Shown: positions 10,169 through 59,199 of the stretch, in pieces
Layout of the letters: every line of letters begins with the position of its first letter
How positions within the stretch are numbered: position 1 is the first letter of the stretch
Assembly (NCBI RefSeq): GCF_964204645.1
Contig: NC_134033.1
Coordinates: 5,366,231 to 5,430,230, forward strand
Origin: Tubulanus polymorphus
Lineage: Eukaryota > Nemertea > Palaeonemertea > Tubulaniformes > Tubulanidae
DNA length: 64,000 nt
Direction of reading: 5' to 3'
The notes under the pieces: model-generated
Told to the model about the DNA's origin: nothing
Database searches by the model: none
Seen by the model: only the letters and a program-made list of their open reading frames with translations
Program-made: the position numbers and the translations under genes

Positions 10169-10657
10169 ATGGACTTTGACCGTATACTGTCCGATGTTCA
10201 TTGTGCTATTTATTGTACTCTAGCCTCAGATTGTAATATTGAAAGGAATGAGTTTCTACCACCCAGAGAGAAGGGCAAAATCCGGTGGTCAAAAGATAAA
10301 GAGGGTCTCTTTAGGAATGCTATTGACCAACAGAAATTAAGTCAGTTAAATCTTGATCTAAACGATAACAAAATAAATTGTGAAACTGCGAATAATATTT
10401 CAACGGAGACATTGATTGGAGCTTCCGAACGTACAATGGGTAGAAAAAAGATTGTTTCAAAAAATAATCGTAAAAAGCCGTTTTTATCTGACCGTGAAGT
10501 TTTAAAACACCGAAAATGTTATAGGCGAGCAAGAAAGAGCTGTAAAAGACACCCAACACCACAACGAAGAACACACATGAATTTGGCTTATAGGAAATAC
10601 AATTTGGCTATTAAAAAAGCGAAACAAAAATACCTTTTGGATCAAATAACCTTTTGA
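10169..10657 (+). pseudogene. LINE linker region, frameshifted from RT
   Basis: About 162 residues, Lys/Arg-rich, ending KYLLDQITF and a stop. Typical of the segment between endonuclease and RT. The protein continues in another frame from 10654 (KKLSKTDPRAYWKFF), so one frameshift separates the two parts. Confidence 0.75.
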
Positions 10658-22785: not shown

Positions 22786-22919
22786 TTACGGCGAATGTGG
22801 AGTTGACCTGTTGAAAGATTCAGCTGCATCGTGCATGATTTCGTCGAAATCTTTAGAATAGTTTGTAGATTTAGCAGATGACTCCGCCAGTAAATCATCC
22901 ATCGTGAATTTCAAACGGC
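22786..22919 (-). CDS. tim: timeless exon 20 (last recognised)
   Basis: Acceptor TTTTTCAG. Encodes RLKFTMDDLLAESSAKS to NRSTPHSP and TAA. The stop overlaps a perfect donor (CC/GTAAGT), so the exon might instead splice to a short exon; a candidate at 22657-22696 would add only 13 residues. Either way AATAAA at 22617-22622 is nearby. Confidence 0.82.
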
Positions 22920-25900
22920 CTGAAAAATTTCGAGAAAAGATTTCCTGTTTATTATCGATTCGAAATATGAAAATCAAGAGACTGAACGGTACGAACCCCG
23001 GCCCTAGTAGACACAACCTCAGTTGGCAGGGATTCAAACCTGATGACATAAGACTCTGTCCTAGTAGACACATTCCCCTCAGCATGGATTCGAACCTGAT
23101 GACATCGTGAGACCCTGTCCCAGTACAAACCCCTGCCCCTAATAGACACACCCTCAGTTGGCAAGGATTCAAACCTGATGACAAGACTCTGTCATGGTAC
23201 TAACCCCTGTCCTAGTAGACACACCCTCCTTCAGCAGGGATTCGAACCTGATGACATCGTGAGACCCTGTCCCAGTACAAACCCCTGCCCCTAATAGACA
23301 CACCCTCAGTTGGCAAGGATTCAAACCTGATGACAAGACTCTGTCATGGTACTAACCCCTGTCCTAGTACACACCCTCCCTTGGCAGGGATTCAAAATCG
23401 ATGACATCATTAGACTGTCATGGTACAAACCTGTCCTAGTAGACACATCCTCCCTCAAAGAGAAGAGCCAGCGTACAAGAATAAACTCGAATAAAATCAA
23501 ACTTACTGGCATCGATTTCGGGCGTCAAAAGTTTCGCCTTTTCGTAGAGTTGATTCGCCGTGAACGCGTGCGGAATGCGCGGGAACTCGCCGCGTTCGCC
23601 GAGGTCGAATCCGAACGACACGAGAATGTGTCGGAAGAACTTGTTGGACAACACGTTCTCCTGCGCGTCGGTGTACGGCAACAACGGGATGCAGCGGCCG
23701 AATTCTGCGAAAGGAAAAAATACCACACAATTAGAATTCCATTGGAATTCAACGAGGAGAACACGCTCATCTATTATCACCATTATCATTATCATTAGGG
23801 CAGCTTATTCCACGAGCGTGCAGCCAGGCGTGTTGGAAGCAATCTTTGATTGCCGCAGCCAATTGCGAAAAACGATGGGTCCAGGGACACCATGCCCGCT
23901 GGGAAAGTGGTATGAAATACTCAACAAACAAGCAATTTCAATATTCAACAACCCCTGGTGAACATATTAAGAAAGCAATGACCTAAATGAAATGTAATGT
24001 AATGTAATTTATTTCATCATCAATAAATTACGAATAAAATTTATAGTAAATAAGTAGATTGATGATGAGGGTCTGAACAGAGCCTTAAAGGCTGTACAAT
24101 CACTAGGATGTTCAGGCCCCCTAGAGAAAAAAAAGAAGATTAATGGTAATGATAACAATAGTTATAATTATAATAATAATAATAATAATAACAAAAATTA
24201 TGGTAATAATTATAATGACAATAACAATGATTATTATTATTATCATAATAATTGCAACCGTAATTATAATTATAATTTACTGTAAAAAGCCTCTTATTGA
24301 CATTTGAGCAGATGGAAGATAGATGAATCGAAAAAAATTGCTTTATGTTGGAATGTATTTCATTATCATCAATATGTACTAAGTGTTTGCTTTTTAAACC
24401 TGCTTTTCAATGAAATAATTGATGGGGTGGATTTTATAACGTGCGATTGAGCCTGCCACAATGACGGTGCTTTGCGAAGAAAAGATGAATTCAGTATATG
24501 CAGGGATGAGAACGCCGACCTGTAAAATCCGCGGGTTATTTTTCTTGAGTGACATACGCGAACCAGCTGACGGCGTAGCCGTCAGCACTAGCGAGCGCCG
24601 AAGGCGCGAAGCTATTTCGGGGGGGGGGGGTTTGGGGGCCCTCCCCCAAGAAAATTTTAGAAATTAAATACGTTTTCCGAGCACTTAGAGCGATCTCGAA
24701 CCCATGAACGACTATTATATTTTGGAAGGTAATGGCTAGTTCCAATGTGGTACATCCTCATTTGATGACATTCAGCATCTCATGCATTACGAGTCGAGCC
24801 CTGAATTATTGCATTAAAAATGCGCCGATGAATGCTCACTAAAAATCATCACCAAGTAGTGTATAATATCCGAAAGCGTTCGCCACACACACGCAGCAAC
24901 AGTAAGTAGACCTATATACGTTACTACTGTTGCTGTGCGTGCGTGTCTGCAACCGATCGATAAAATACATACAAACTCATCGTAGTACAAATGTACATAC
25001 AAAATCACTGTGTTGCAATGAATATGCATTGAAATGCGATACTTTTACGTGACGATAAGTAAAACAGGCACTGAACGCTTTTACGGTTCACCTGATTACC
25101 GATCGCGCCGGACCAATTGAGTGAGATCATCACCCCCCCCCCCATACTTTTACATCATTTTTGGACTATTTGGAAAATTGATATTTTTCAATACTGAAAT
25201 CCGCGGGAAACCGCGGATCCGCGGGGAATTCTCATCTCTGGTATATGGGATTTATGTAATTGTATTCTGGGAAAATTCCGTGATCTAGTATTGTATTGAT
25301 GATTAAATGAATTTTGATCAAATAAATTCATTATCAGCTGTGGAAGAGCATTGTTAATAACTCCGTGGACCAGTTTGAGAAATTCTAAGGTGATCATATC
25401 TTCGAATTTTAGTATTCTATATTTCTGGAAAATGGGAGATGTAGGTGTATTAAACTTTGCACCATCTAATGCTCGGATAGCTTTCTTTTGCAGTTTATGA
25501 ATTGTTTTCAAATGTTTTATGGATATAAGTGGTCCCCATAAGGAAAGGCAATAGGTTACGTGTGTATTTATATAGCTGAAATATAAAGAAGACGTTTACA
25601 CCAATTCGGCAATAAATTTTTAACACTTCTCAGTAAAAAAATATTCTTATTCAGTTTAGAGCATAATGCTTTGATGTGTTCGTCAAATGTGAATCTATTA
25701 TCAACAATGAGACCTAAAAATTTATGTGACCGAAAAAAAGCAATGTTGGTGTTACCAAAAGTTAGTAAGGGATCGTCTTCATTTTACCTTTGGGTGTAAT
25801 AAAAAGTCTGGCCGTTTTTGAAATATTTAATTTTATTATGGAGTCATTCTTCATAAAAATTGAGATAGAATTCAAATTTTTTCCAGTTAAACCAAGTGTT

Positions 25901-31900: not shown

Positions 31901-34900
31901 TTTGATTACTAATAGAATTCAACTATAAGTGTAAACAAACAAGGAAGTAAACAGGTTCGTGGCTGAGGCAAATTCTAGATGAAATAGAAAAATGAATGAA
32001 TAAGAAAGTAAAAAAAGAACACAGACTAAAAAAGTCTTAAGTAAACACCGATTGGGAATCGGTGGTGATGCAACATGATTACAGTTTAAAGCTTTTTTTT
32101 TAAAGAGAAAGAAAGGGGGATATCATACCTAAACCAAATGGGACGTTGAATGTAATGACCCACTAGCTACAATTTTGCAATTGATAGTGGTTACAAAATA
32201 TGCCCAAAGACCAATACAATATGAACATACTAAGTTATTCAGCTTTTTAACGCCAATGACCTTGAAAGTCACCATAATCATGGACAATGTCACAAGCTAC
32301 AATTTTGCAATTCACTGTGGCTACAAAATACATTACCAATACATTATGAAAATAGTAAGTTATTTGGCTATTCAATGCCCCCTGGTGGCCTTATACAACA
32401 AACAATGACCTGGAATTACTTCACAATCATAGAAAAATAAAGCCTCTCTGAACAGACGGACAGCGGACGAAAAGTAAACGCGATAGCCCGCTGGGACTTA
32501 ACGTAAGTCGCAAGCGGGCGAAACATGTTGAAAATAACTCGTAAGACTTACTTGTGTAATACAAGGTCACCGGCTCTTCTTGAGGTGAATTGCGCGTCAA
32601 TCTCGAACCACCTAGAAATTACCGGAGAAAAAAAAGAGAAATAAAACCTCGGTCGCCGAAGAAAGAAAAAAATTGTTCGCGTTTTAATAAGTTCTTCGAT
32701 CAAAATTCTCTACTTTTCTCCGTTTCTAAAGAACTAAATCAATCATCAATGTAAACAATACGAATCACTGAGTAGAAAATGAAAGACCCGCGCATGTAAA
32801 CTGAAATTAGGAATTTCGTTCGCCAGAAATAATATATGGCTGAAATTTTTACAGGGGTTAGAGTATGTTTTGGGGTGTACGAATCAGATAATTTTTTGGT
32901 AGGTCCTGCGATAATCTATCGAATCGGAAGCCGAAATATTTCAGTGATGAAAGTTGATCGATAATGAACTAATTCTGACGACGTATGACCGAGCGCTCGA
33001 AACGCCATCTGGCGGCATTTATAACCGCAGCCATGCGCAGTTCCCATAGGGCGGTAGACAATCATGGGTCAGCTGTGTAAGGTACCGCGCATTGTGGGTA
33101 GGAGGTCGACTTACCTAGCTTTATGTAGCACGCTTCTAACAGCGTATTCTGCAACCATTCGACGTGTTCGGAGCGCTTTTCTTTGTGTAGTTTTTGAACG
33201 CAGAACGAAATGTAGTCGTTAATGTCGCCACGTTCGCGATCGAATTCGCCCACAGATGCATCGTTCAGCTGCAAGATTAAAATTTGAAAGCGCCTTTCAA
33301 CGACCTGTTTGATGCGAAAAAACATCTAGTACGGCAATGGAGGATTCGACTTGTGGCAAGTGAGGATCCACCAGGTGTCGCTAGTTTGCAGTAGAACATC
33401 AACTACTGCAGCAATTGAGGGTTCTACCTGTGGCAAGTGAGGATTTACCAGGTGTCGCTAGTGTGCAGTAGAACATCAACTACTGCGGCAATAGAGGATT
33501 CAACTTGTGGCAAGTGAGTATCCACCAGGTGTCGCTAGTGTGCAGTAGGACATCAAGTACTGCGGTGATAGAGGATTCTACTTGTGGCAAGTGAGTATCC
33601 GCCAGGTGCCTTTAGCATGCATAAGACATGAACTACCGAGGAGATTGCGGATTCCAGTTTGGGTAAGTGAGGATCCACAATGTGTCGCTTGTGTGCAGTT
33701 GGACCGAGAATGTGTAACTGTTTGGCGCACCATCCGGTGGGATAACTAGTTCCATGGGATCCTCATTGTATTCGTGTATCTGGGCCGTGCGGAAGATATT
33801 ATGAACGTACCATGGAATGAGTGAGCTCATCAGAGAAATGAACTAAGCCTAGTTCCGTCAGTCTCGCCAGCACCTACGACAGAGAAAGAGAACATTTAAA
33901 TGAAATATATCTATACCTACACAGAATCGAGGCTTTTGAACAACCGAACTACCGCCTAAATAATCACAAATATACAGCTTGATTTTCTAAACGAGAATAA
34001 CTGTTCTGTTGGCGAAAATAGGATACTGACTGTTTAAGTCAAGGATTCCACTTATGGCAAGAGAGGATCTGCCACCGGTTCTAGCCGCTATATACTGGGT
34101 ATAGCGCTCAACCTAAACCCAATCCTAATTCATCTTGCAATCGTTAAATCTCACCCTTAACCCAATTCCAACTCTAATGCTAACGAAATTGAAATATTAT
34201 TTGAACCTCTCCCTGGGGAGAAGTAACATCTGAGCTACTACTAGGTGCTCAGGAATCATCGGGCCAGGTACCCATTTACTCCTGGGTGAAGAGAGGCAAT
34301 GAGGAGAAGTGTCCAAGGACACTATGGTAATATACAGGGTTCGAACCAATGACCAGGGTCACCAGAGTTAAACGCCCTAGCCACTCGCCCACACTACCTA
34401 CTCAACTGGCTATTGCCATATATTATCTTACCGATACTTACGGCATTTTTCGTTTTGTGCGTTTTATCCAAGTTCAAACCGGACCAAACCATCGTCAGCA
34501 TGTCCGGTTTATCCATGTACCGTAGGTAATACATGCTGAGCTTCTCCGTCTCCTCGAGCGTCCAATCAGACGACTCGGTCGCATCGCTGGAAATAAAAGA
34601 AAGACATTTCTCGTCAGGACTGTCCAATGTCAATGACTGATCATTTATATTAACCCTTTCAGTGCTGACTAATCAATACCCTATAGTGCTGGAGATAATT
34701 TGTAAATTTTGAAAAATTCCACCCTAGTGTGTTGAATAACGGTAATACCACTATAGTGCGTATACACCGCGGCGCGGTGTATCGTTAGTTACTAATATTT
34801 CACTATGTTTGACAGGTGCTGCCATCTTTCAATAGAGATAAAAACTAATTACTAGTTACATCAATACACCGCAGTGCGGTGTACCAGCAAAATCCATCAC

Positions 34901-37900
34901 CGATTCATACACCCATTGCGGTGTAGGCGCACTGAAAGGGTTAAGCGAACTGATAATAACTTGATAGTCTCAAGATTTAAGACCACTGGATCCAGTTCCA
35001 CAGTTGTGAGTTAAATTTGACACGATAGACCTAAAACAAAACATTGAAAAATGAACCGAGTAAACTCTAACTCACAACTGTGCAACCGGGCCCTGGACTT
35101 AACTCCTCGACTGTGGACCCCCAAGTAAAACCATCAGGAAGTTACTGAACCTGACAAATGGACTACCCCGAATAGCTCAACAATCGAGATTCTTGAGGTC
35201 ATTTCTTTTACCTGTGAATAGCTTCGTCGAACCCGGTCTTCGCGACGACGAGGAATTTCGAGAACGTGTAGTCGATCAAGTCGTCGTAGTTCTGAAGTAA
35301 ATAGAGTAAATCAAAAATAAAACAGAATGAAACCGCGTCGAATTTTGAACTTCAAAATTGTACATATATGAAATGGTTTTAAATGGAAGTTTCTGTAGAG
35401 GTCTGGCCGTAATGTGGTTTTGTCATTACGCTATATTGAACTGATTTACATCATGGCAAACACCCAGTACGTAGCTTCTACAGGCTCTTTATTGTGTCTA
35501 TATCTATTTGCGTGACACACCCCAAAAGATTCCGACAATTACTTTCGAAAGACCTTCCCCGATTTATCAAATTGGAGAATTATCTACATGCACATGCATA
35601 CATAAATACATGCGCTACCGAGTTCCCTGATTGTTAACTCAGTGAAATATTTACAGCAGTCTCAACGCTACCGAGTACCCTGATTGTCAATTCGGTGAAA
35701 TATTTACAGCAGTCTCAACGCTACCGGGTTCCCTGATTCTCAACTCTTGTGAAATATTTACAGCAGTCTCAACGTTACCGAGTTCCCTGATTGTCAACTC
35801 TGTGAAATATTAAGACAACGAATACCAAACGACGTATACGAAACACACGTACCTCTTGCAGTTTATGATTTTCATCGCAGATCGCCGTGAACGTCTCGAT
35901 GATCGGAATTTGCAGAAGCATGTTGGGTTGCTGACAGTCGCCGGCCACGTGGTGCATCATGGTCAACAAACAGTCGTTCAGAAAATCGGTGTTCTGTCGA
36001 AATCGCGTCAGCAATTTGCCGTACTGGGCCATCATACTCTCCGTCGCGAAACTATGAAATAAACGACAACAAGAAATAAGTTAAACAGAGTTGTCGAACA
36101 GCCCGGTACACTCAGACGTCGAAAAAAAGATAATAAGGTTAGAACCGGCTCGACGCAAATTTAAAAGATCAAAAACTGAAATCTATTTATCGACAACGTA
36201 AAATATCAAAAATTCGCAGATAAGATATGAACATCATTAAATCAATGTTTCTTTCCAGTTAAATCAAATTCCCTGCATTACGGCCCGAGACCCTCACGCA
36301 GCTAACTGTCTGGAAACTTTTTCATTTCTCGAAGAAAGTTTTAAAAGGAGAAAAATTTCATCCAAATAGATCCCGAAAAGCCCATCCAAATTTTCAGTGG
36401 GAGGGCCACATACAAGAGCCAACACCAATTACCATGCTTGTAGCACTCGCATTGCCGAACAAGCCCTTAACGGTCCATTCTTATTTTCAGGTCCACCCCT
36501 GTCGAAGAATCATAAATCCTAGAAGTTTCACAATAAACACATCAAAGTATAAAACAACGCAAACCTTATCGAGGCGACGCAGGCTTGGAGTCATGCCATA
36601 TTTTCCAGGGGCCAGTTGCAGAGTCGTGAATTAAGTCCGGTTTAAACAACTGAAGATCGGTCTTAAGTTGTTAGATTGGCTATATAATCAAGTTGGTCTT
36701 AGACTGGTCATAAGTCTTAGCCATTATTATGCAACCGACCCCCCGAAGTGCAGTCACCAGAATGCCGTACGATGCGTACGGATGAACTTACTTTTTAACA
36801 TGAGCCAGCATGTTGAACGTCAGCGTAGTCGCGGCCGCCGCGTTGTTTTGGCTGTTTACGACGTTCTCCATCATCAGCAGCAAACGATGGTTCGTCATGA
36901 TCGCTTTCGACAGAAAATCCAACGTCTGTTCGTCGTCGTTGCTGTTGTTCTTATGCAGACGGATTAACAGAACGTAGAGCATTCGAATGTCGTACGACGC
37001 CGTCAGTCGAACTGTCGAAAATAAATCGAAGTAGCTATTTGTTTATTATTACCACTCATTTTGCTTTCTTTTCCCCTGAATATTCCCTGACATGCGCTTT
37101 GGTTTTCCCTGACTTGATCTGCTAAGAATCTGATCCATTAATTAACACAGCCGAATACGTACATAAAGAGATAAATGGAAACTGTTTGATTTTACATGCG
37201 ATAAGGCTGTCTCAAATTTCCCTCACTTTTTCCGGATGATATTTAGCTTCTTTTTTTCCTTTTTTTCTTATATAAAATTCTCAAACTTTTTCTAAGACAA
37301 TTTCCTGACTTTTCTTGATGCCCAGGTAAGTGAAGAAAATTCAAAATCAGTCTCATTCTTAACATAATGAATGCTTTCGATGATATCTGGGGTGGGAAAA
37401 GACAGGAGAAATTACCTAAGGTGATGGGGGATACAATGAGCAGGTTTTCCATGGGGGTGGGTACAGACAGCAGATTGTCTGAGGGGGTGCAGGGTCCAGA
37501 CAGCAGAATATCTGACGGGGTGTAGGGTCCAGACAGTAGATTGTCTGAGGGGGTGTAGGGTACAGATATAAGATTTTCTGAAGGGGTGCAGGGTACAGAC
37601 CGCAGATTGTCTGAGGGGGTGTAGGGTACAGATATTAGATTTTCTGAAGGGGTGTAGGGCATAGACAGTAAATTGTCTGAGCGGGTGTAGGGTACAGATA
37701 TTAGATTTTCTGAAGGGGTGTAGGGCATAGACAGCAAATTGTCTGAGGGGGTGTAGGGTACAGATATTAGATTTTCTGAAGGGGTGTAGGGCATAGACAG
37801 CAAATTGTCTGAGCGGGTGTAGGGTACAGATATTAGATTTTCTGAGGGGGTGCAGGGTACAGACCGCGGATTGTCTGAAGGGTCGGGGTGAATGTGGTGT

Positions 37901-43900: not shown

Positions 43901-46900
43901 AACGTGATGAAAGTGATGAAACCTACCCCAGTTCGTTCTCGAGTGGATTCGATTCAATCGACGAGTCGAGTCTCAGCGAGTTCTCGCCGCCGGCGCACGT
44001 ATCCATAACGCTTAACGCGTCTTCGCGTCGCGAGGCCTCCTCATCGTCGTCGTCATCATCATCGCGGTCATCCTCATCGTCGTCATCGACGTCCATCGAT
44101 TTCATCGACAGACCTGAATCCGAGCAGATGTGATCGCTGCCGACGTAATCGAGCGGCGATTTTTTCTTGCCGGCACCACCTTGAGGCTCATCGTCGTAGC
44201 TGCTGTACGAACAGTCCCGCGACTTGATGCGGGTGGAGCCGTCCTCCGGCTTGTCTCTGGCGCCGCCGCCTGCCGCGATGTCTTTCCGCGACGACCAATA
44301 ACGTGGCAGCATTTTTGCCGTGAAAAGATGGTCGTTCTGAAAAATCCGAAAACGATGATATTCTTATATAAAACTCATATAAAAAGGCGGTGCTGCCATC
44401 TTTCAACAGAGATGAAAACTAATTATTGATAACATCAATACACCGCAATACGGTGTACTAGCAGAATCCATCACTTATACACCGCACTGAGGTGAAGACG
44501 CACGGAAAGGGTTAATGAGAGTTTATTTCAGCGACGATAGATACCTGATGTTTGTAAATGACATTGAGTAGTTGCGCGATCGCGACGACTAGTCGGTTGA
44601 CGGACGGTGAATGCAGCAGCATCAGCAACTCGTTTCCCAAACCTGCACGTAGTAAATTCCTGCAAAAGTTTCCAAGGAGTTAGAAGAGTGGCGAACAAGA
44701 AGCAAACCGAAGGGAAAAATGAGAACAGTTCCAGCTGAAATCCGCGGTTTATTTCGAGAGGTGTCGGTTATATGCCGATAATACCCAGGGTCCAGTTCCA
44801 CAGTTCTGAGTTTAGATTTAACTCATTGAAAATGAATTAGCTTTAACTCAGAGTTAACACTAACTCACAACTGTGGAACTGGATCCAGGACACAGTTCCA
44901 CAGTTCTATGTTTAGGATCTGACTCTGAGTTAACTCGTTGAAAATGAACTAATTTTAAGCTCGGAGTTAACTCAAACTTACATCTGTGGAACCCGGTCCA
45001 GATATATTTTGTCAGCAAGAGCTGGCTCTCAGTTTTCCCCTTTCACTAACGCTAACGTTCTATATCAGTTATATGTAAAGTCTGAGATATTTCATGTAAC
45101 AGACTGTAAACACATAAATAATAATGATAATAATAATCTATTTTCTTATACGGCGATGCACAATTACTAAGTGCAAATCATTTTCCAAAATATCAATTTA
45201 ATTATCATTATTATTGTCATAACCATTATTTTCGGTGCTTTTAATATTGTTAATATTATCGATAACATCATTATTTTTATCATTAATAATATCATTATTA
45301 CTGTACATACCTGAGAAGTCCTCGTGACCGCTCGGCGTGTAGTGGGTTCGACGAAGTGGGAACCTTCAGTAGATTCGCCAGCAGATGTAAACTGAGAACG
45401 GTTAAATCGAGGGCTTCGTCGTCGAGCGGATACTTGCCAGCCTGCGGTGTAGAAAATATATCACGTTTAAACGACATATCGAATATTCATTCGAACGATT
45501 AAATTTGACGGGAAGCTGAAAGTGACGAGAGGATGAGTGATGAGGTGGCCTAGGAGGAGTGGTAAGGTTTATGAGATGAGAGACATGGGAAGAAAAAAAG
45601 TGGAAGGGACGGATAGGAGTTTAAGTTCAGGTTTATTGTGTAAAAGCTCAAGACCAAGGAGAGAAGGAAGGAAAGGAAAGGCTAAGAAGGGGCAGAGAAA
45701 GGCTAAGGGAAAGAGATAGGTGCTAAGAAGGGGCAGTGCAAGGGTAAGAAAGGGAAGGGAAAGCGTAAGGAGGGAAAGAGAAGGGCAAGAAGGGACAGGG
45801 AAAGGCTTAGAAGGGACAGAGAGAGGGAAAGGCTTAGAAGGGACAGAGAGGGGGAAAGAAGGAGCAGAAAAAGGCTAAAAGGGCAGGGAAAGAGTAAGAA
45901 GGGACAGAGTAAGGATAAGAAGGGAAAGAGAAAAAGACAAAGGGCAGAATCATTAGGTTCATAAAACAATGTAGTCATCAATCAGCGCTATAAATACCAC
46001 CACGAGCACGCGGCGCCGCCGGATTATATTTCACGTTCGTTTATAAAAAGAATTGCGTCGGCAATGAATATGGCGATATAGCTGATTGACTAGGAGTGTC
46101 AGCGCTGCCGCGAAACAACTGACAAATGCTATTTATTTCTTCTTCCATCAACTAAATTATTTTTCGCGATGATGTTGATTCATTTAATAAGAGCTCGCTC
46201 GCTCGCACCTGCGCGCCCATTCACTTTACCGCAGCGTCGATATCGCGCGGATCCGGATATTAACCAGCGACAATGGACTGGAGAATTGTCTGAAACTCAA
46301 CGGTATCAACGAGGATGACTAATAGGATATAGTCAAAACGTCAAATAAACTACGTAGCTGAAGGTGCATTTTCGTTTCCTTCAGGGACGGATCCATGGCA
46401 ATTCCTTGGCTACAGCACGGTGAAATAAAAAGGGCACAAACTTAAAGAACAGCCAGTATCCCTGCCCAGCGAGATCCAAGTTCATCACTATCCCGAATAG
46501 CTCATTTGATGTTTATTTCCATGACCACAAGTTCGTGGTTTTTTGAAGTAAATAGGAAGGCTTTCATATGATATAAGATTTGATGAGGTTGGCCACCAAA
46601 ATCATGTCCTTTTGCCCCCCGCCCCGAAATTCATCCAAACATACTTGGATTTGAAATGAGCGCTCAGATCTGTCATGTTCTAACTCCCAAATACTGGAGA
46701 ATTTCAAATAGGAAGGTGTTGATTTCGGCACGGTTTTTCAACGTCTCAGACGTTGGTCATGTCTCGTCTTTACATTAGCCACTCAGTGTTCCTTATGGAC
46801 AACCAGCTCTAGCACCAATTCAGCGTGTCCAAAACATTGCTGCTCGTTTAATTTCTAGAGGCCGTGAATATGACAGGATTTCTCCTAATTTAAAGCGGCT

Positions 46901-47143
46901 TCACTGACCTACCTATCATAGCCAGGATTGATTTCAAGATCCTGTGTAATTAATGTACATCGGTGCATCGGCCCAAACAGACTCTGTCCCATTTGGCACC
47001 CGTGTGAACAGTTGTGCTCGTGTGATCACAGCTTTACTGCATGTCACTGAAGGATGCACCAGATATTGTTCTGCGGATTCACTGCAGATTCATCGCACCC
47101 GTACATAATATGGCGATGGCGCCTTCTCATCGGCTGGACGACA

Positions 47144-47175
<32 letters not shown>

Positions 47176-50100: not shown

Positions 50101-53100
50101 AACAGTATGAAAGTACGTAAGCCCTAACTATTTGAGGCAATTCACAGAGAGCCATCGACCAAGACGCCGAAAAAAGCTACGAAGTAAATAAATAATCGGA
50201 TGTCTGGACATTTATCTAGACATTACAGTGGCCCCTTTTTGACTTTTCGCCAACTATTCCCTGACATGCACACATTGTTTTCCCTGACTTGAACTGCTGA
50301 GAATCCGATCAATTAACACAGTCGAATACTTAAGACATAGACGGAAACTGTTTGACAAGTAAAGTTCCCACGGCATCCCTCCGATTTCTAGTTGTTTTTT
50401 TTCTTTATTGAAGAAAAGAAAATAGGGGATCAAGAAATTTTTGTTCGCACTACTTACTAACGGTTACGGATACAGGGTCCCCATGGATCAGTCATTCCCA
50501 GATATAAGCAGTTTTCAAGGGGTTTTAAAGTTGAAAATTTCGCGTTTCGAAGAAGCATCCACATCACTTTCGTATCCCAAATTACTGTAGACTCCTCCTA
50601 AATTCGTACCGTTTATCTCGGTTAACCGGTAATTCGGTGGTTTTATACGAGCAAATTTGTATCCTGACACTAACTAAATTCGGTTGCTAATTCGGTAACC
50701 ACCTAATTGGGTATTAACAAAAACATTGCCGTTTAGAAACCGTACCGATTTATTCGTAGTCAATACAACTTCAAAAGGCGCCTAATCTCGAAATTTCTGA
50801 CATTTCGCTCGAACTTAAGTAGTACCGAGCATCTTCAAAAGGATTTACCGCTTCGAAGGAGGTTTCGACGTTTAAATAAGTTGTAGGGAACCTGTAAGAC
50901 GAAAAAAGGAATAAAAACGAATCGTACGAACCTCGCCGGTGACGGTCTGCAGTATTTCGACGATTCGCGCGCCGATCTCCATTTTGCAGACGGCGTCCTG
51001 AATTTGCTGCAGCATTTGCGTCAGGTCCTTCACCAGGCGCGCGTGCGCTTTACTGCGCGACTTCACGATCGCCGGCGACAAAAGAACATTCACCGGTCGC
51101 GTCATGTTCTCAAGCAGCCTGAAAATTAAGACGACGGATGAAAATTAAGACGACGGGGAAAACTAATTACGTGTCAATAGGTTGTCCCTCGATAACGGCC
51201 CCTTAACTGATCGGTCATTCCCAATTTTCAAGGAGAAAATTTCACATTTCTCGGAAGCGTCGACATCGTCTACATTTCCTAATTACAGTAGGCTCCTCCT
51301 AAATCGGTTATACCGCTTGTCTCGCCAAACCGTTTTACTGCATTCGCGCATCTTTCGAATAGAGATGACCCGGGCCGCAATATCACCGCGTAATTCGACG
51401 GTTTCGTAACCGAATCCGTCATCCTTTGATTCGATTGATTTGGCATAAATAATTCGTACAGAGATTATTAACAGAACGGTAATCACGTCCCATGTAGTCA
51501 TCGGTGTAGCAATAGTTTACGCGAGGAATCGAAGAAAAGCCAAAAAGGGTTAATACCAGTCTAAAAACCCCCACACTACACACACTCCAGTCTTGCTTTC
51601 CTAAGCACACATGTGCGCATACATTACTGAAGACGTTCAAAAGTGTAAATACAAATTAGACACGTTTATATTTAGATTGGTAAAGCCTAGCCTACATTGA
51701 CACTGCGATTGGAGACAACTAGTTGCCGGGCAGTTTTCGGCGCATAAGAGTAACTGGCTGGGTGCAATCAGTTGCGCGAACGTGTTGATGTGAGCTAGCT
51801 TACGACTGGTTAGCGTCTATCTCCAGTTCCAGCCAGTTGCCCATGTTCTACTTTTGAGCAACTAGTTGTACTCAGTTACTGTCATATCCATCGATGTGAG
51901 TGCTCCATAATCAACAACACGTGGTTGCAACTGACCAAAAAAACCAATTTGTCAGGTGACTTGAGATGCCCTCAAGAATATTTGCTCGATAACACATCTC
52001 AGTTGCTGTCGATGTGTGCGCTATGGACCTAGCGACCGACATGAGCCACGCAGTTGCTGGTTTTCATTAGATTTTCAATGTGTGCGCTTACTCGCTCACT
52101 AGCAACTAGTTGTCTCCAGTCGTTTAATGAAAAGATCATCGATTCAGTGCGTGTTGCGCCAATTTGGTTTAGAATGCCAATAAATGAAGAATTCGACAAT
52201 TACCAAACACAGTTTACGATTCGGTAAATACCTAACTGGGGCAAAAAAAATCCAGATCCCGACTATATCGATTTAGGGGTAGTTTACTGTACAACTACAA
52301 ACATTCCGAATAATCTGTTCCTCAAAATTGAAGTTTTAAAGAAGTTTTGGGCATTTTGTTCAAATCAAAGGAGTTTCGAACACCTTCATGAGCGTTTTTC
52401 CGTTTTGAAGGAGTTTTCAGGGAATCAAGGAGTCGTAGGGCTCCCGTAAAAACGAAATTATAGCATCACAGTACATAGGCCCTACTTTTCTTTAAATCAA
52501 ATGGTATTTCTACAAGTTATCATGATTATCGTCATCGTAACCTTTTTATGTAAGACTCTATCGTTTATAATAATAGTATAGCTAGCGCTGGTGGAATAGG
52601 ATCGGTATCTGCACTTACTTGATAGAGGCTTGCAGCATAGCTGGATCATCTTTCACAGACAGAATCAAAGGTAGAATTTGCTGCAATAATAAAATGTCGA
52701 TGACAAGTTTTATTTGAGTCTGGATTCAATTCCACTGTTGTGTGGGTTTAATTTGACTCTGGATCCAGTTCGGCAGTTGTGCAGTTTAGTTTGACTTTGG
52801 ACTCAGTTCTGCAGTTGTTATGTGGGTTTAATTTGAGTCTGGATTCAATTCCACAGCTGTTGTGTGGGTTTAATTTGACTTGCATTTAACGTGTATCTTG
52901 TATGAACACGTATTTAGATTTGGCAAACAAAAAATCTACCAGACGCTTCAAAATACGACAGAAATGATGGCGTCGTTATCTTAATAACAATCGCGGCCGT
53001 TGACTTACCAGCTGAACGACCTTACTGAGCCCGAGTTGAACGCGAGCCGATCGCGTGGTAACGTCCTCGTCTTGTAGCAGCTTTAGCAACGTTTCCAACA

Positions 53101-56100
53101 ATTCTGCGAAATAAGAAGTAAATGACAGCTCATCGAAAAGAAGAACAACATCAGTAAATGGGATGAGGACAACGCTAATGTGGCAAGCGAGTCAACCTCT
53201 TTCATTAGTAAATGAAACTTCAGTTCAATCCTGTGAACGAGAGGAACCGGCAATCGCAGGGACGAACTTAGGGAGTGATCTCAACGGTCCAGATCAGCAT
53301 TCCTAATGAGGTTGCCCTCAGTGATCGAGACAAGGATCTTTAAAACATCCTCTCGGGAATTTTAAACTTGTAAGATCTACGCACGTACTTCTTTGAAAAT
53401 ATCTCAATACCAAGGGTGGGACCATGACACTACTGACTAAAACAAAGCGAAATGATGCTCAAAGATGCCCTCAAGAATATTTGCTAGATAACACATCTCA
53501 GTCGCTGTCGATATACGCGCTGTGGACCTAGAGACTGCTATGCAGTCGCTGGTCGCTGCATATTATCAGCTGCTATTTCGATGTACACTATAGCCTTCAT
53601 AGCCTATCTATTCAATCACTCAGATAATTTTTCGGAACTTTCAGCATTTTTAGAACTTCCAGTTCTAACCAATGGACTTTCCGATACCCAGGAGGTCCCA
53701 CTGTATATAGAACTATCAGTTTTAACGAACAGATTTTCTGGTCTCCTGAAGTTCGCTGTAACGAGGTACCGTTGTATATAGAACTATCAGTTACAACAAA
53801 CAGATTTTCGGATGCCCTGAAGTTAGTTCTAATAAGGGTTCCGCTATCTATGAACTCAGATGCCTCCAAATTCTACCATTTCAAATTTTGAGGAAGTGTC
53901 TATGTCGCTTACATATCCCAATTACTCCTCTTCATACTGTTAATTCAGTGACTACGACCTAGACTTGGTTTTAAATTAGATTTAAAAAACCTGCTCCTCA
54001 ACTGTACAGATTTAGGCATAGTCTACTGAACAACTACAAACTAAACAAAAATCTCTAATGGCCTAGATTTCTCGAATTCGAAACCATCTTAGTAGTTTTA
54101 AGCATTTTGCTCAAACCAAAGGATTCTCAAGCACCTGTAGGCCTAAAAGCACTTTCCGTAAAAGAGTTTTTGAGGAATCAGGGAGCCATAAGAACCCAGT
54201 TCATGGTCACTATTATTTGATTCGTTTTTTCCCTGACTTGCCCATGACATGTACACGTTGTTTTTGAAGACCTTGCCCGCCGAAATTCCAAACGATTAAC
54301 ACCACAGTCAAATATACGAGAAAAAACATACACAGAGACTATAAGATTATACACACGATTCAATCTCAACTAATTTCCAAGACCTTTCCCGGATTTTAAA
54401 ATATTTCACAAAAATTCATTTTTATTTCACTTGCTCCCCCCTGACTATTCCCCGACACGCACGTTGTTACCCTCCTGACTTGATCCGCTAAGAACCCAAT
54501 TAATTAACGCGCAACGCATAGATGGAAACTGTTTGATTACGTGCATGATCTCGAAATTCTAACGTATTTACATCACTTCACCACGGAATCGTGGCTGTTC
54601 TTGATCAGGCAATCTCAACCAGTTCTCAAGACTCCCCTCCCCCTGATTTCTAACTATTTTAGAAATCCATTTTCTTTTTATTCAAAGAAAGAAACATTCC
54701 CCCCCCCCCCGATGTTTCCCCGATTTCCTGCGGTAAGCGTACGCCCTACAATATGCTCGAATAAAAGAAAAATGAGAATTAAGACAGTAAGAACATCGAT
54801 AGGTACCTAATTTAGACGAGGCGGTCACTATGGGCATCTTCCAGATGGCGGTTAACGAATTCCACATTCTCGTACGGCGCGGAAAAACAATATCAGATAT
54901 ACGATATACTGGGTGAAACAATGCCCGATAAAACAATGCCGTTGTCGAAAAACAATGCCGGATAAAACAATGTTCGATGAAACAATGCCGGATAAAGCAA
55001 TGTCGTTCTCGGGGAAAAAAATGTCCGATAAAACGATACCAGTTAGAACGAAATTGCTCAGTGGTAAGTGAACAAAAAATGTTGCAGCAGCAGCAGCAGC
55101 AGTTAGCACCGTGCGGACCACGCGGACTGGATCGAAGTGTTCGCCGCGACGCGGGTTACCCCGAAAAATACCCAGTGCCCGCCCGCGCGTAGAATCGCGT
55201 GATTGGCTCGTGTACGCGCGCGGCGTTTGATTGGTCGGCTGCCGCCGTCGCTGAATGACGCAAAGTGGTTTCGTTCATTAAATTCGGTTTATCGTCTTAA
55301 TTCACGTATAGGTGCGTAGGGTGTGATCTATTTACAGTCGGATATTGACGGCGTTATTTAATGGAAGCCTCCGCTCGTTTACGTACACTCAGCGACGATG
55401 ACATCAGACGCCGGATGCGACTTTGAAGCGTTGCGTTCGATCGTGTGGGCAAAAAAAAAAGAGAGATCTATCGCTAGATTACGCGACGATCAGCTGAATT
55501 GAATGAAATGCGACTAAAAAAAGAATCCCCTTTCCCCTCCGCGGAAGTTTATTGGCGGAGTGTTTACCACAATTGGAAGCTTAGCTCTCCATTTAAGCCA
55601 GAGGACCCATTGACGGCTAACCTCGAACGTGCGCTACGCTAGCTAGCAGCCCTCATTCTCGGACCACGGGCAGCTGCTAGCTCCCTGACGAAAGCCAATT
55701 GTTTAAAAAACCCAGAATTCTTAATCTTTCCTTGAAGGACAGAGAGAGTGAGGAGATGAGAGAGAACAAGGGAAGAGGAAGAGAGAGTGAGGGGGTGAGA
55801 GATGGAGGGAGGGGAAGGGAGAGGGGAGGGGGAATGAGGGGGAGGGGGATGGAGAGGGGGAGAGGAGAGGGAAAGGGAGATAGGGAGAGGGAGGAAGGGA
55901 GGGAAAGGGAGAAAGGGAGAGAAGTCCCGTGTCAAGTGCGCAAAAACGTCGTGACATTTTAATACCGACGCTGAGATATTTTTAACCTCTCTGGTCGGGC
56001 GATGAGAATCACGTGCAGGGAGCGAACGTATATTTAGATCTGTCGACACGAGAGCACCTGCCCGGCTTCTCGATATATTAGATAATAAACAAGTGCCTCA

Positions 56101-59100: not shown

Positions 59101-59199
59101 CAGTCTCTCATTAGTGAACATTTCAAATAACCTACCGATATCCGGTAATTCGTAAGCCACTGATTTCAATCCGGCCGGGTTCATTAACATCCATTCCAT
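22786..59199 (-). CDS. tim: TIMELESS-family protein, 20 coding exons (gene span)
   Basis: Exon-intron gene on the minus strand. Twenty exons join in phase from ATG 59199 to TAA 22786-22788, about 913 residues. Family blocks in order: N-terminal MEWML; the DEDVTTRSARVQLGL armadillo-like start (22-74); ENMTRPVN (about 75); QLLNVIYKHQ (about 209-218), which matches the conserved QLIALMYKDQ-like block; a Ser-rich and Asp-rich segment (219-354); YFLWTLMFFSKFA (about 400); LVVAKTG; DCLLTMMHHVAGD (about 594-606), matching the HCIVKMLHRLAHD-like block of human TIMELESS; EWLQNTLLEACY; IPLLPYT...FPRIPHAFTANQL near the end. In flies TIM partners PERIOD and is light-degraded; the paralogue TIMEOUT acts at replication forks. 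Short length, lack of a long basic middle and the first residues favour the circadian TIM type. Family assignment is firm, subtype is inference. Confidence 0.92.
22985..23460. repeat. Tandem array in timeless intron 19
   Basis: Six to seven degenerate units with 'ggattcaaacctgatgacat', 'agactctgtc' and 'cctagtagacacaccctc'. A segment of about 135 bp is repeated twice nearly perfectly (about 23084-23218 and 23235-23372). It fills the space between exons 19 and 20. Confidence 0.85.
23507..23704 (-). CDS. tim: timeless exon 19
   Basis: Acceptor CCTTTCGCAG, donor GTAAGT. Encodes FGRCIPLLPYTDAQENVLSN and EFPRIPHAFTANQLYEKA, the conserved C-terminal block. Ends in phase 1. The intron before it is 8.8 kb and carries a nested GPCR. 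Confidence 0.93.
23805..24260. repeat. Repeat fragment, retroelement tail and (AAT)n
   Basis: 23870-23990 matches the 16.7-kb repeat. It is followed by 'gtaatttatttcatcatc', a 'ggctgtacaatcact' segment also seen at 15570, and an AAT/AAC-rich microsatellite at about 24160-24260; together they look like a minus-strand LINE 3' end. Confidence 0.55.
25188..26395 (-). mobile_element. 5'-truncated LINE with RT, minus strand
   Basis: Starts in the middle of the RT at NY..ISLLPTISKILEK, then LDLSKAFDSLN (motif A) and GVPQGSVLGPLLF (motif B) in 25887-26387. The YADD motif is lost in frameshifts. The C-terminal part (LQKKAIRAL, KYRILKFEDM, YNTRS) is at 25188-25511. CR1/Jockey-type. It begins about 8 bp beyond the stop of the ORF at 26403-26660, as if inserted there. 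Confidence 0.88.
26403..26660 (-). CDS. Small unrecognised ORF, 85 aa
   Basis: ATG to TAG on the minus strand, 85 residues, Lys-rich: MESKKIDSEF, then LTELTLHKKYLITNIETITN, RYGNKLVIHLEYEG and FRTYLPDF. The pattern (hydrophobic strand, T-x-RYG, strand, YLP) recalls short proteins of unknown function that I believe recur in invertebrate genomes near mobile or virus-derived DNA; this is memory-based and unverified. Surroundings are very AT-rich. It is not part of the LINE or of timeless. Confidence 0.45.
   Translation of the reverse strand: MESKKIDSEFLNRIKDTTSVKSVDYKFKKLTELTLHKKYLITNIETITNRYGNKLVIHLEYEGLKGNKYKFRTYLPDFIDYQVKI
26923..27071. mobile_element. 149-bp MITE, copy 2
   Basis: Perfect 28-bp terminal inverted repeats starting AGTAATTGTATAAGTG at both ends, with further imperfect pairing inward. 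Same length and core ('cgagcgtgcgagaattta') as copy 1 at 7854-8002. Lies in timeless intron 18. Confidence 0.88.
27120..28075 (-). mobile_element. LINE RT remnant, minus strand
   Basis: Fragments in several frames: GTFLDLSKAF (motif A) near 27740-27770, DILFADDTN (FADD active-site box) near 27490-27520, and INFIGLTIHKNFNWTPHI near 27210-27300. Frame breaks and deletions make it dead. Same broad CR1/Jockey group as the neighbour, different lineage. Confidence 0.82.
28591..29541 (-). CDS. Class A (rhodopsin-like) GPCR, intronless, nested in timeless intron
   Basis: 316 residues, single exon, same strand as timeless. Short N terminus with N-glycosylation sites (NST, NKS). Seven hydrophobic segments at about 29-54, 64-90, 105-135, 150-172, 192-221, 240-262 and 278-298. 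Hallmarks: GN in TM1 (46-47), LSLSD in TM2 (Asp 75), Cys 109 at the top of TM3 pairing with Cys 185, ERM (133-135) instead of DRY, CSLP in TM6 (Pro 258), and NFYIY (290-294) instead of NPxxY. The C-tail is short with basic residues and Cys. The pattern fits invertebrate peptide receptors (FMRFamide-receptor-like); the ligand is unknown. It would signal through G proteins at the plasma membrane. Confidence 0.92.
   Translation of the reverse strand: MNSTQMQIGRTYHSYFLIMALENKSGRHRIVSLVILPIVFLFGAFGNLATFLIMISRRFRSLPYANYLIVLSLSDSLYCIVLTLMPLLQFVLLHVNFGPIIIMNSLISCQIYEFAAVFAACNSSWLIVVISLERMAVVLFPFTARLICTPRFARIAVLIITVVNALVIFLTPALSIHFSDPWFGCYYKLIDQLRLFTVIVIHANLLPLALIIISNSVIIIQLFRGSKIVSSDQKTSKSKRTTIMLVTVSVAFAMCSLPSTTTTFLPISEERREHIFDICVQIEMCNFAVNFYIYLLLGQEIREYFCTKIRCRNSVK
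30330..31838 (-). mobile_element. LINE endonuclease plus linker remnant, minus strand
   Basis: Apurinic-type endonuclease motifs in order: LNVIQYNIHSVYDKLDDLKI (Asn motif) and LCETFI (catalytic Glu) in 31400-31795, then SDHYPCFFS (catalytic Asp-His) in 30775-31071. The linker (YYAKQIESFKCDSRKLWNIL) is at 30363-30710. Frames are broken by indels and no RT follows directly. Confidence 0.85.
32110..32520. repeat. Second copy of the 16.7-kb dispersed repeat
   Basis: Contains 'agctacaattttgcaattg' twice, 'caatgccccctggtggcc' and the right end 'gacggacagcggacgaaaag' with 'agcccgctgggac'. It abuts timeless exon 18. Confidence 0.8.
32552..32611 (-). CDS. tim: timeless exon 18
   Basis: Acceptor TTTCTAG, donor GTAAGT. 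Encodes RLTRNSPQEEPVTLYYT; in TIM proteins a 'PxPxxYYT' stretch precedes the IPLxP block. Ends in phase 1. Confidence 0.85.
33115..33268 (-). CDS. tim: timeless exon 17
   Basis: Acceptor TTGCAG, donor GTAAGT. Encodes DINDYISFCVQKLHKEKRS and VEWLQNTLLEACYIKL, matching 'LLWLQNxLxxA'. Ends in phase 1. Confidence 0.9.
33345..33700. repeat. 77-bp satellite, 4-5 copies
   Basis: Units with 'ggatccaccaggtgtcgcta' and 'gcagtagaacatcaactact' at 77-bp spacing. Related arrays in inverse orientation lie at 38880-39130 and 56825-57285. All three are in timeless introns. Confidence 0.85.
33811..33873 (-). CDS. tim: timeless exon 16
   Basis: Acceptor CGTAG, donor GTACGTTC. Encodes VLARLTELGLVHFSDELTHS-M, matching 'HHLVQMGLADSxxD'. 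Phase 0. Confidence 0.88.
34200..34398 (-). mobile_element. tRNA-derived SINE, minus strand
   Basis: Minus strand starts GTGGGCGAGTGGCTAGGGCG (box A-like) and has GGTTCGAACCC (box B) about 40 nt later, then a body with 'cccaggagtaaatgggtacc' and 'gatgttacttctcc'. The same body is in the copy at 39692-39988. Confidence 0.82.
34442..34586 (-). CDS. tim: timeless exon 15
   Basis: Acceptor TTTCCAG, donor GTAAGT. Encodes SDWTLEETEKLSMYYLRYMD and KTHKTKNA, matching the SANT-like 'W(S/T)xEEE...LY' helix of the family. Phase 0. Confidence 0.9.
34654..34940. mobile_element. piggyBac-like MITE, complete copy
   Basis: 287 bp with inverted ends CCCTTTCAGTGC and GCACTGAAAGGG, flanked on both sides by TTAA (34650-34653 and 34941-34944), the piggyBac target signature. 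Inside are palindromes such as 'acaccgcggcgcggtgta'. No transposase. Other copies: 8860-9055, 20675-20895, 44390-44511, and a left end at 41113. Confidence 0.88.
34985..35097. mobile_element. Palindromic element, GGATCCAGTTCCACAGTT family
   Basis: Ends 'ggatccagttccacagttgt' and 'acaactgtgcaaccgggccc' are inverted repeats about 110 bp apart. Related copies at 44788-44890, 44890-45000, 63592-63710. Confidence 0.7.
35212..35291 (-). CDS. tim: timeless exon 14
   Basis: Acceptor CTTCAG, donor GTAAAAG. Encodes NYDDLIDYTFSKFLVVAKTG-FDEAIH. Ends in phase 2. Confidence 0.88.
35605..35812. repeat. Tandem repeat, about 60-bp unit, 4 copies
   Basis: 'ctaccgagttccctgattgt' then 'gaaatatttacagcagtctc' repeats four times with few changes, just downstream of timeless exon 13. 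Confidence 0.88.
35853..36051 (-). CDS. tim: timeless exon 13
   Basis: Acceptor TTCATAG, donor GTACGTG. Encodes NTDFLNDCLLTMMHHVAGDC and LQIPIIETFTAICDE, the strongest family signature (family: N-x-C-I-x-x-M-x-HR/HH...LFQ...F). Phase 0. Confidence 0.93.
36608..36745. mobile_element. Palindromic MITE, GGGGCCAGTTGCA family
   Basis: Ends 'ggggccagttgcagagtcgt' and 'ttatgcaaccgacccc' are inverted repeats. The centre matches 18950-19085. Ends just before timeless exon 12. Confidence 0.78.
36792..37011 (-). CDS. tim: timeless exon 12
   Basis: Acceptor CGACAG, donor GTAAGT. Encodes ASYDIRMLYVLLIRLHKN and IMTNHRLLLMMENVV, the 'TNHxLLxxLE' block. Ends in phase 2. Confidence 0.9.
37430..37885. repeat. 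33-bp minisatellite, about 14 copies, open in frame with timeless exon 11
   Basis: Two 33-bp types alternate (66-bp higher order). On the minus strand, in the frame of exon 11, every unit reads as 11 residues of the type YTPS(E/D)NL(I/L)S(V/M)P with no stop. It starts about 25 bp beyond the exon 11 donor. Confidence 0.93.
37911..38017 (-). CDS. tim: timeless exon 11
   Basis: Acceptor TTTCAG, donor GTACGAG. Encodes LHNVLMAMYELLAVLDTFMM, matching 'MHLALKAYQELLATVNEM'. Ends in phase 1. Reading through the donor stays open for about 220 codons because of the minisatellite at 37430-37885. Confidence 0.9.
38144..38260 (-). CDS. tim: timeless exon 10
   Basis: Acceptor TTCGTAG, donor GTAAGT. Encodes IFSYLTYLAVDYSERYLVSL and ESAARVYWK. 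Ends in phase 2. Confidence 0.9.
38880..39130. repeat. 73-77 bp satellite family, 3 copies, inverse orientation
   Basis: Units with 'gcacactattgacacctg', 'cctactgcacattagtgac' and 'ggtggatc', reverse complement of the 33.3-kb array. Adjacent to timeless exon 9. Confidence 0.78.
39182..39312 (-). CDS. tim: timeless exon 9
   Basis: Acceptor ATTCAG, donor GTAAGTG. Encodes YEQAESYFLWTLMFFSKFAV, matching the 'TYYMWALAFFMAF' block. Ends in phase 2. Confidence 0.9.
39692..39988 (+). mobile_element. tRNA-derived SINE, plus strand
   Basis: Head 'gtggagtgggcgaatgataa' with box B 'gggtttgaacctcg', body 'cgcccaggagtgagtgggta', 'ggatgttacttctccgc', and a 3' part ending 'gggtgctatagaaact'. Longer 3' end than the 34.2-kb copy. 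Confidence 0.82.
40117..40186 (-). CDS. tim: timeless exon 8
   Basis: Acceptor after a long T tract, donor GTATGT. Encodes DLLCIFTVQFLKHGFAQLVN-NLQ, matching the LxxFxxxFLxxxxxxL helix that follows the acidic loop in the family. Phase 0. Confidence 0.88.
40380..40690. repeat. ATA/ATC-rich microsatellite region
   Basis: Impure runs of 'ataataat', 'atcatc' and 'attatc' over about 300 bp. An apparent minus-strand ORF here is only a poly-Tyr reading of the repeat. Confidence 0.8.
41113..41760. other. Intron sequence with a piggyBac-like MITE left end
   Basis: TTAA then CCCTTTCAGTACACTACC at 41113 onward resembles the MITE left terminus. 41490-41740 is GC-rich and open in two frames but has no support as an exon. 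Confidence 0.4.
42050..43190. repeat. Degenerate tandem array, ~100-120 bp units
   Basis: About ten degraded units containing 'agaaaaccc', 'ttattcccttgattatcatc' and 'agggttttt(c/t)gct'. A different repeat block at 42350-42600 (also at 47480-47830) is embedded. Confidence 0.65.
43290..43510. repeat. Dispersed repeat, inverted mate at 46490-46720
   Basis: 'ggccaaaaggacatgatttt' and 'catatgaaagcctattta' recur in reverse complement near 46560-46620. Both are in timeless introns. Confidence 0.7.
43578..43705. repeat. Long hairpin (inverted repeat)
   Basis: Arms 'aagtaacgagacgagtagta' and its complement near 43672-43705, continuing through 'ggttaactgtttatt' / 'aataaacagttaacc', leave a loop of only about 25-30 bp. 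Confidence 0.85.
43927..44336 (-). CDS. tim: timeless exon 7 (Ser-rich and acidic segment)
   Basis: Longest exon, 136 codons plus 2 nt. After NDHLFTAK it is low complexity: Gly/Arg, a Lys cluster (GKKKSPLDY), Ser-rich ICSDSGLSMKS, then a run of about 19 mostly Asp residues (about 300-318). Likely disordered and a phosphorylation target. Acceptor TTTTTCAG, donor GTAGGT. Confidence 0.9.
44390..44511. mobile_element. piggyBac-like MITE, right-end fragment
   Basis: Matches the right part of 34654-34940 ('ggtgctgccatctttcaaca' to 'gcacggaaaggg') and is followed by TTAA. The left half is missing. Confidence 0.72.
44545..44659 (-). CDS. tim: timeless exon 6
   Basis: Acceptor TTGCAG, donor GTATCT. 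Encodes GLGNELLMLLHS and VVAIAQLLNVIYKHQ, one of the most conserved TIMELESS blocks. Phase 0. Confidence 0.92.
44788..45000. mobile_element. Two adjacent palindromic GGATCCAGTT elements
   Basis: Two tandem copies of about 100 bp, each with 'cagttccacagttct' at the left, 'ttgaaaatgaa' in the middle and 'tgtggaac' at the right. Confidence 0.75.
45311..45441 (-). CDS. tim: timeless exon 5
   Basis: Acceptor CCGCAG, donor GTATGT. Encodes DDEALDLTVLSLHLLANLLK-VP, matching the ...LLRNxLHVP helix. Ends in phase 2. Confidence 0.9.
45530..45955. repeat. Purine-rich minisatellite
   Basis: About 420 bp almost only A and G on the plus strand, with repeating 'gctaagaaggggcag' and 'agggaaag' units. Long open frames on both strands follow from composition. 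Confidence 0.88.
46790..47215 (+). mobile_element. LINE 3' end with (TTA)n tail
   Basis: Broken frames read APIQRVQNIAARLISRGREY, then PNLKRLH and later SVPFGTRVNSCARV, the standard C-terminal region after RT in CR1-like LINEs. It ends in a TTA microsatellite (about 47143-47175). Confidence 0.72.
47480..47830. repeat. Dispersed repeat, mate of 42350-42600
   Basis: Shares 'aagtatttcatgggt', 'ggtgattttcaagggaaat' and 'aatttcccaaatattt' with the earlier block, in the same orientation. Confidence 0.7.
47835..49630. other. Timeless intron 4 sequence, no gene
   Basis: Includes short 'cctgagaggcat' repeats at about 48303-48360 and a moderately GC-rich part at 49190-49560 that is open on both strands without exon signals. 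Confidence 0.5.
49635..49965. repeat. Tandem array, ~50-bp unit, 6-7 copies
   Basis: 'cccagttccacagttgtgtg' then 'gtttaatttgactctggat' repeated. A shorter array of the same unit lies at 52715-52880. Related to one end of the GGATCCAGTT palindromic elements. Confidence 0.85.
50932..51118 (-). CDS. tim: timeless exon 4
   Basis: Acceptor TTTTCAG, donor GTTCGT (weak). Starts LLENMTRPVNVLL, the counterpart of the family's LVNLTxP block, and ends EILQTVTGE. 62 codons, phase 0. Confidence 0.9.
51286..52291. mobile_element. ~1-kb Tc1/mariner-like non-autonomous element
   Basis: Ends 'tacagtaggctcctcctaaa' and 'tttaggggtagtttactgta' are inverted repeats, starting and finishing with TA. No transposase frame. 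A left-end-like sequence also lies at 50588. A second element (about 51697-52120, ends 'ggagacaactagttg' / 'caactagttgtctcc') is nested inside. Confidence 0.65.
52619..52680 (-). CDS. tim: timeless exon 3
   Basis: Acceptor TTGCAG, donor GTAAGTG. Encodes QILPLILSVKDDPAMLQASI, equivalent to the 'DLIPLLxxxxDDxxxxxxSI' helix pair. Ends in phase 2. Confidence 0.88.
52715..52882. repeat. Tandem array, ~50-bp unit, 3-4 copies
   Basis: Same unit as 49635-49965 ('ttccac(t/a)gttgtgtggg', 'tttaatttga'), located just right of timeless exon 3. Confidence 0.82.
53009..53103 (-). CDS. tim: timeless exon 2
   Basis: Acceptor TTCGCAG, donor GTAAGTC. Encodes LLETLLKLLQDEDVTTRSAR and on to KVVQL; the Asp-Glu-Asp and Arg residues match the 'YEDQTLR' region of the family. 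Ends in phase 0. Intron 1 before it is about 6 kb. Confidence 0.88.
53464..53562. repeat. Partial copy of the element nested at 51.7-52.1 kb
   Basis: 'gatgccctcaagaatatttg' and 'ataacacatctcagt' match 51966-52070. Confidence 0.75.
53615..53860. repeat. Tandem repeat related to pogo-like ends
   Basis: Three units of about 75 bp with 'tatatagaactatcagtt', 'aacagattttc(t/g)g' and 'ctgaagtt'. Similar to the right end of 19143-19335. Confidence 0.7.
54905..55045. repeat. Short tandem repeat (gataaaacaatgcc)
   Basis: About eight imperfect units of 15-20 bp in timeless intron 1, followed by a (CAG)6 run near 55087. Confidence 0.8.
55735..55928. repeat. GA-rich polypurine tract
   Basis: About 190 bp with almost only G and A on the plus strand ('gagaggggaggggga' type). 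Candidate triplex-forming DNA in timeless intron 1. Long open frames here are compositional. Confidence 0.9.
56825..57285. repeat. 73-bp satellite, 6 copies
   Basis: 'acctggtggatcctcaccac' recurs at exact 73-bp steps (56906, 56979, 57052, 57125, 57198). Related arrays lie at 33.3 and 38.9 kb. Confidence 0.93.
57769..58535. repeat. 34-bp satellite, ~14 copies, split by a LINE end
   Basis: Units like 'ctcctcaagccacccgtatc' plus 'caccctgactat'. The array stops at about 58225, is interrupted by a LINE 3' fragment, and resumes at about 58487 ('tatccgccctgctcatta'). Confidence 0.9.
58226..58487 (+). mobile_element. LINE 3' fragment inserted in the satellite
   Basis: Reads TPTLWNVLPQEIRESLTVSC then FKSRLKTFYFRNLYN and stop, the universal last ~40 residues of CR1/L2-like LINEs, then a 3' UTR with 'gcgctttataagtaaataa' and an (ATT)n tail. 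Extreme 5' truncation. Confidence 0.88.
58613..58710 (-). mobile_element. LINE 3' tail, minus strand
   Basis: 'ataataatgataataat' then 'tatagcgctaaatc' and 'caaagcgctttaca' match, in reverse, the 3' UTR and tail of the LINE at 58226-58487. Confidence 0.6.
59136..59199 (-). CDS. tim: timeless exon 1 (start)
   Basis: ATG then MEWMLMNPAGLKSVAYELPD-I, ending in phase 1 before donor GTAGGT. The start resembles the MDWLL-type N terminus of insect TIM. The leftover G joins AA of exon 2 to give Glu. A TA-rich box lies 38-52 bp upstream. Confidence 0.78.

Follow-up and report, generated by a model that had tools for sequence, protein, structure and literature searches.

In the fly, once light has been received, the CRY tail in the flavin pocket gives way to the N-terminal helix of TIM, and CRY is also contacted by the first three ARM repeats of TIM; loss of type-I CRY is usually accompanied by loss of TIM (PMC11362059). 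Proteins of this clock type have been described from lophotrochozoans as well. A clock-type timeless of the annelid Platynereis has already been reported (PMC3913041), TIM of the oyster Crassostrea gigas counts 934 aa and clusters with arthropod TIM (PMC5224872), and the timeless protein of the vent mussel is 1168 aa long. In Platynereis and the vent mussel TIM occurs alongside TIMEOUT, L-CRY and a repressor CRY, which, compared by description, is also the situation found here.

The window (the whole stretch of 64,000 nucleotides that was analysed) harbours a multi-exon gene of the TIMELESS family on its minus strand, running from an ATG at 59199 to a TAA at 22786, as established by splice-aware alignment and border checks. 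It is very probably the single-copy clock-type timeless gene (TIM) of a lophotrochozoan, distinct from the replication-fork gene TIMEOUT on another chromosome. For the gene model, fly TIM was mapped onto the genomic strand by splice-aware alignment, after which the exon borders were set by phase and splice score; the fly query matched PDB 8dd7 chain B over residues 1-1398, with zero mismatches in the residues listed. Several exons of the first spliced model, which had 26 exons and fly TIM as its sole guide, were spurious and were dropped on phase, splice and coding checks. The 18-exon model (Table 1) comprises 2619 nt encoding 872 aa and remains in frame over 36 kb without a stop or frameshift. 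Every internal exon border follows the GT/AG rule and the phases fit together throughout; the donor of exon 15 was picked because it keeps the phase. A further exon of 60 nt was the top one of 18 phase-compatible candidates in a 9.4-kb gap. Judged from its sequence it probably belongs to the TIM gene, and it is treated as optional, its addition giving a 19-exon model of 2679 nt and 892 aa. Across all gene versions tested the protein length was 872-927 aa. The earlier note had described an in-phase gene with GT/AG borders from ATG to TAA, which stands, but its count of 20 exons, 2742 nt and 913 aa is replaced by 18-19 exons and 872-892 aa. The E-box CACGTG occurs 11 times in the window, approximately as expected from base composition (a rough estimate), and is not enriched near the start of the gene.

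Table 1 Exons of the timeless gene and candidate additional exons, in window positions
Feature	Position	Strand	Remark
Exon 1, start codon, MEWMLMNPAGLKSVAYELPDI	59136..59199	-	following intron shared with TIMEOUT (same position, same phase)
Exon 2, N-terminal TIMELESS/ARM domain	53009..53103	-	
Exon 3	52619..52680	-	
Exon 4	50932..51118	-	
Exon 5	45311..45441	-	
Exon 6	44545..44659	-	
Exon 7, acidic/serine-rich insert (poly-D/E), 410 nt	43927..44336	-	
Exon 8, second ARM region, DLLCIFTVQFLKHGF resembling fly NLLKEFTVDFLLKGY	40117..40186	-	
Exon 9	39182..39312	-	
Exon 10	38144..38260	-	
Exon 11	37911..38017	-	
Exon 12	36792..37011	-	
Exon 13, best-conserved block FATESMMAQYGKLLTRFRQNTDFLNDCLLTMMHHVAGD	35853..36051	-	
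Exon 14	35212..35291	-	
Exon 15, single SANT-like block SSDWTLEETEKLSMYYLRY	34442..34586	-	donor 34442
Exon 16, TIMELESS_C region begins	33115..33268	-	
Probable exon, 60 nt, GGSRLTRNSPQEEPVTLYYT resembling fly MEPVAYHC, optional	32552..32611	-	best of 18 candidates
Exon, TIMELESS_C / PAB-like domain	23507..23704	-	
Last exon, TAA at 22788-22786	22786..22919	-	exon end 22790 if GTAAGT is spliced
Speculative alternative terminal exon, 35 aa, needs 22790 as donor	21597..21705	-	coding score

Fly TIM, with 1398 residues and a longer middle, is larger than the window TIM (872-892 aa); the two share 256 identities over 860 aligned residues. The middle is not absent from the window protein, as had been stated, since exon 7 encodes the acidic and serine-rich insert. 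A lysine/arginine-rich exon was sought between this exon and exon 8 (43926 to 40187) and no credible one was seen. At the other end of the protein, MEWML corresponds to MDWLL at the start of fly TIM, and MEWMLMNPAGLKSVAYELPDI of exon 1 is the probable counterpart of the N-terminal helix by which fly TIM reaches into the CRY pocket. The helix of the window protein is shorter by about nine residues than those of fly TIM and TIMEOUT. The interval between exons 1 and 2 was searched for a lost N-terminal exon carrying the GCLEGDTY motif, yielding zero credible candidates. The intron in this interval has the same position and phase as in TIMEOUT, and a missing exon is therefore unnecessary; the N-terminal helix is simply shorter.

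The C-terminal tail of fly TIM, ~290 residues, appears to be missing or much reduced in the window TIM. The TAA stop overlaps a donor-like GTAAGT motif, and given this overlap a short extra C-terminal exon could exist. If GTAAGT served as an intron donor, at least one further exon would add a tail, and the compact size would be an artefact of the gene model. The candidate exon at 21705-21597 is phase-compatible and has a strong acceptor and the best coding score among the downstream candidates, and vent mussel TIM is, by its reported length, longer than the window TIM. However, this candidate does not resemble the fly tail and shuffles score equally high in 81 %, while two AATAAA motifs (22622 and 22566) follow the stop at 164 and 220 nt. 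Oyster TIM, likened to the window TIM by reported length and not by alignment, is likewise a compact TIM from a lophotrochozoan and comes close to it in size. Truncation of the gene model is thus possible but rather unlikely, and a compact protein ending at this TAA is the reading followed here. The fly C-tail and its CRY-binding C-terminal helix were sought downstream as far as window position 1 and were not found; the best C-tail matches were rejected as antisense to LINE sequence or as chance.

The earlier note had proposed to look for a longer paralogue in the same genome, and this was found in the form of a complete TIMEOUT gene of 24 exons encoding ~1199 aa (C6:6940488-6949143, minus strand, loci L005 and L006). 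It was modelled separately with human TIMELESS as guide, the human query agreeing with the PDB residues listed. The C6 protein shares 541 identities with human TIMELESS over 1168 aligned residues (46 %) and scores 1053.6 bits to it versus 120.8 bits to fly TIM; it is much nearer to human TIMELESS than the window TIM is. Human TIMELESS (PDB 7pfo chain K) and the C6 TIMEOUT have a common ancestor with the window TIM. In a joint alignment 9 of 18 introns were common to TIM and TIMEOUT in position and phase, eight exactly and one a column off, with the intron between exons 1 and 2 among them. By chance less than one exact match is expected (a rough estimate for 18 versus 23 introns, ~850 aligned positions and three phases). 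The nine common introns, eight of them exact, show that TIM and TIMEOUT arose by an intron-copying duplication. Because the C6 gene was modelled separately, the matches also support the exon borders of Table 1 independently.

The assignment of the window gene to TIM is based on scores, phylogeny and layout. A rough concatenation of exons scored 75.9 bits against fly TIM and 28.5 bits against human TIMELESS, and the full model gave pairwise scores of 524 with fly TIM, 138 with the TIMEOUT of its own genome and 104 with human TIMELESS. In a maximum-likelihood tree of five sequences, in which fly TIM was the sole other clock TIM, window and fly TIM were separated from human, C6 and C. elegans with 100/100 support, and an AU test rejected all three alternative topologies tried, including grouping with TIMEOUT. 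The choice of clock TIM over TIMEOUT made in the earlier note is borne out by these results, and the five-sequence phylogeny places the protein beside fly TIM and outside TIMEOUT. Pfam TIMELESS_C was recognised on the whole protein (3e-9, 37.4 bits, cut-off 23.8); Pfam TIMELESS was recognised on the N-terminal 228 aa (1.3e-11, 44.8 bits, cut-off 25) and is unlisted for the full-length protein. Greater nearness to human TIMELESS, an extra middle block and a second SANT-like repeat are features of the C6 TIMEOUT and are all lacking in the window gene, which has a single SANT-like block. Window and fly TIM both begin with M-[D/E]-W-x-L, carry an acidic insert between their two ARM regions, and have one SANT-like block and a TIMELESS_C domain; the MEWML start and the single SANT-like block, previously read as TIM layout, are both seen in the alignment. 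Genome-wide, a second TIM copy was sought and none was seen, the sole other match being sub-threshold and located within the TIMEOUT gene.

Long branches lead to both the window protein and fly TIM, and the introns in common with TIMEOUT point to the same ancestor, so a fast-evolving, shortened TIMEOUT copy might resemble fly TIM by long-branch attraction. The likeness between window and fly TIM, however, goes beyond distance. Positive features are common to both: the acidic insert occupies the same site, and the window protein contains stretches of TIM type (ECC/EACY.KL and EPV). The window protein lacks the entire block that separates, in TIMEOUT, the second ARM region from the conserved FA..Y..LL block; it has one SANT-like block where TIMEOUT has two, and a normal TIMEOUT exists separately in the genome. 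Together with the result of the AU test, this makes a derived TIMEOUT copy very improbable. That the gene is a decaying pseudogene whose frame merely looks intact is hardly credible: LINE fragments and satellite-like repeats lie within its introns and Pfam TIMELESS is weak across the whole protein, but the 2619 nt in 18 exons are free of stops and frameshifts, the splice sites are usable and the conserved cores align with fly TIM along the full length.

Candidate partners of the clock-type TIM are encoded in the same genome. One cryptochrome locus on C1 best matches the light-receptive CRY of Platynereis (278 bits) and another locus on C1 best matches mammalian CRY (300 bits), while PAS exons match PERIOD, CLOCK and BMAL. 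Since a type-I CRY and TIM are both present, and the start and ARM core of TIM are kept, TIM would, by analogy with the fly and Platynereis, pair with PERIOD and repress CLOCK:BMAL, and would provide light input by being bound by the light-activated type-I cryptochrome (L-CRY). A fly-like docking of CRY is plausible in view of the conserved M-[D/E]-W-x-L start and ARM core. It might also be speculated that light input docks differently from the fly in this lineage, because the N-terminal CRY-pocket helix is shortened and a C-terminal CRY-contacting tail would be lacking, yet a light-type cryptochrome is kept; we consider this unlikely. Timeless RNA of Platynereis is mainly light-driven and shows no robust cycling when darkness is constant (PMC3913041), which leaves it unproven that TIM belongs to the core oscillator of lophotrochozoans.

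The last large intron of the TIM gene contains, between LINE fragments, an intact single-exon gene for a rhodopsin-like GPCR (7tm_1, 1e-17; window 28594-29544, minus strand). A first look at the genome gave 2110 GPCR candidates, and at least 126 full-length copies with 66-75 % identity are located on nearly all chromosomes; almost none of them contains a stop. Pairwise comparison of ten copies gave a median dN/dS of 0.32, and their sequences resembled each other chiefly within the coding region and the stretch just upstream. In view of this ratio and the concentration of similarity in the coding region, the set looks like a very large receptor family under selection, perhaps chemosensory. Remains of LINE-type reverse transcriptases lie at window 10615-12783 (plus strand), 25191-27839 and 30366-31831 (both minus strand), and among them a long open frame of 722 aa is found on the plus strand. 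Tandem arrays occupy 37459-37882, 56828-57242, 57770-58230 and 23056-23455 in TIM introns, with periods of 33/66, 73, 34 and 79/152 bp.

The lophotrochozoan nature of the host is confirmed by a Hox cluster of ~316 kb (C6:5318228-5634756, plus strand), in which all ten homeodomain exons share one strand. We take its homeodomains to be of Lox5, Lox4, Lox2 and Post2 types, and UbdA-like motifs (QIKELN/AIKELN) occur in the cluster. These types and the UbdA-like motifs are lophotrochozoan signatures. A search for COX1 yielded no match. A clock-type TIM in a lophotrochozoan is useful for clock evolution, as had been proposed, but its novelty was overstated, since those of oyster, vent mussel and Platynereis are known. 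The window gene is an ordinary clock TIM that was correctly recognised, and related animals were already known to have a TIM of compact size and to keep it alongside TIMEOUT. The genome offers a chromosome-level lophotrochozoan example in which TIM, TIMEOUT, PER, CLOCK, BMAL, L-CRY and a repressor CRY are found together. The same clock set has already been reported for Platynereis and the vent mussel, and the finding supports, without changing it, the accepted view of the clock in ancestral protostomes.
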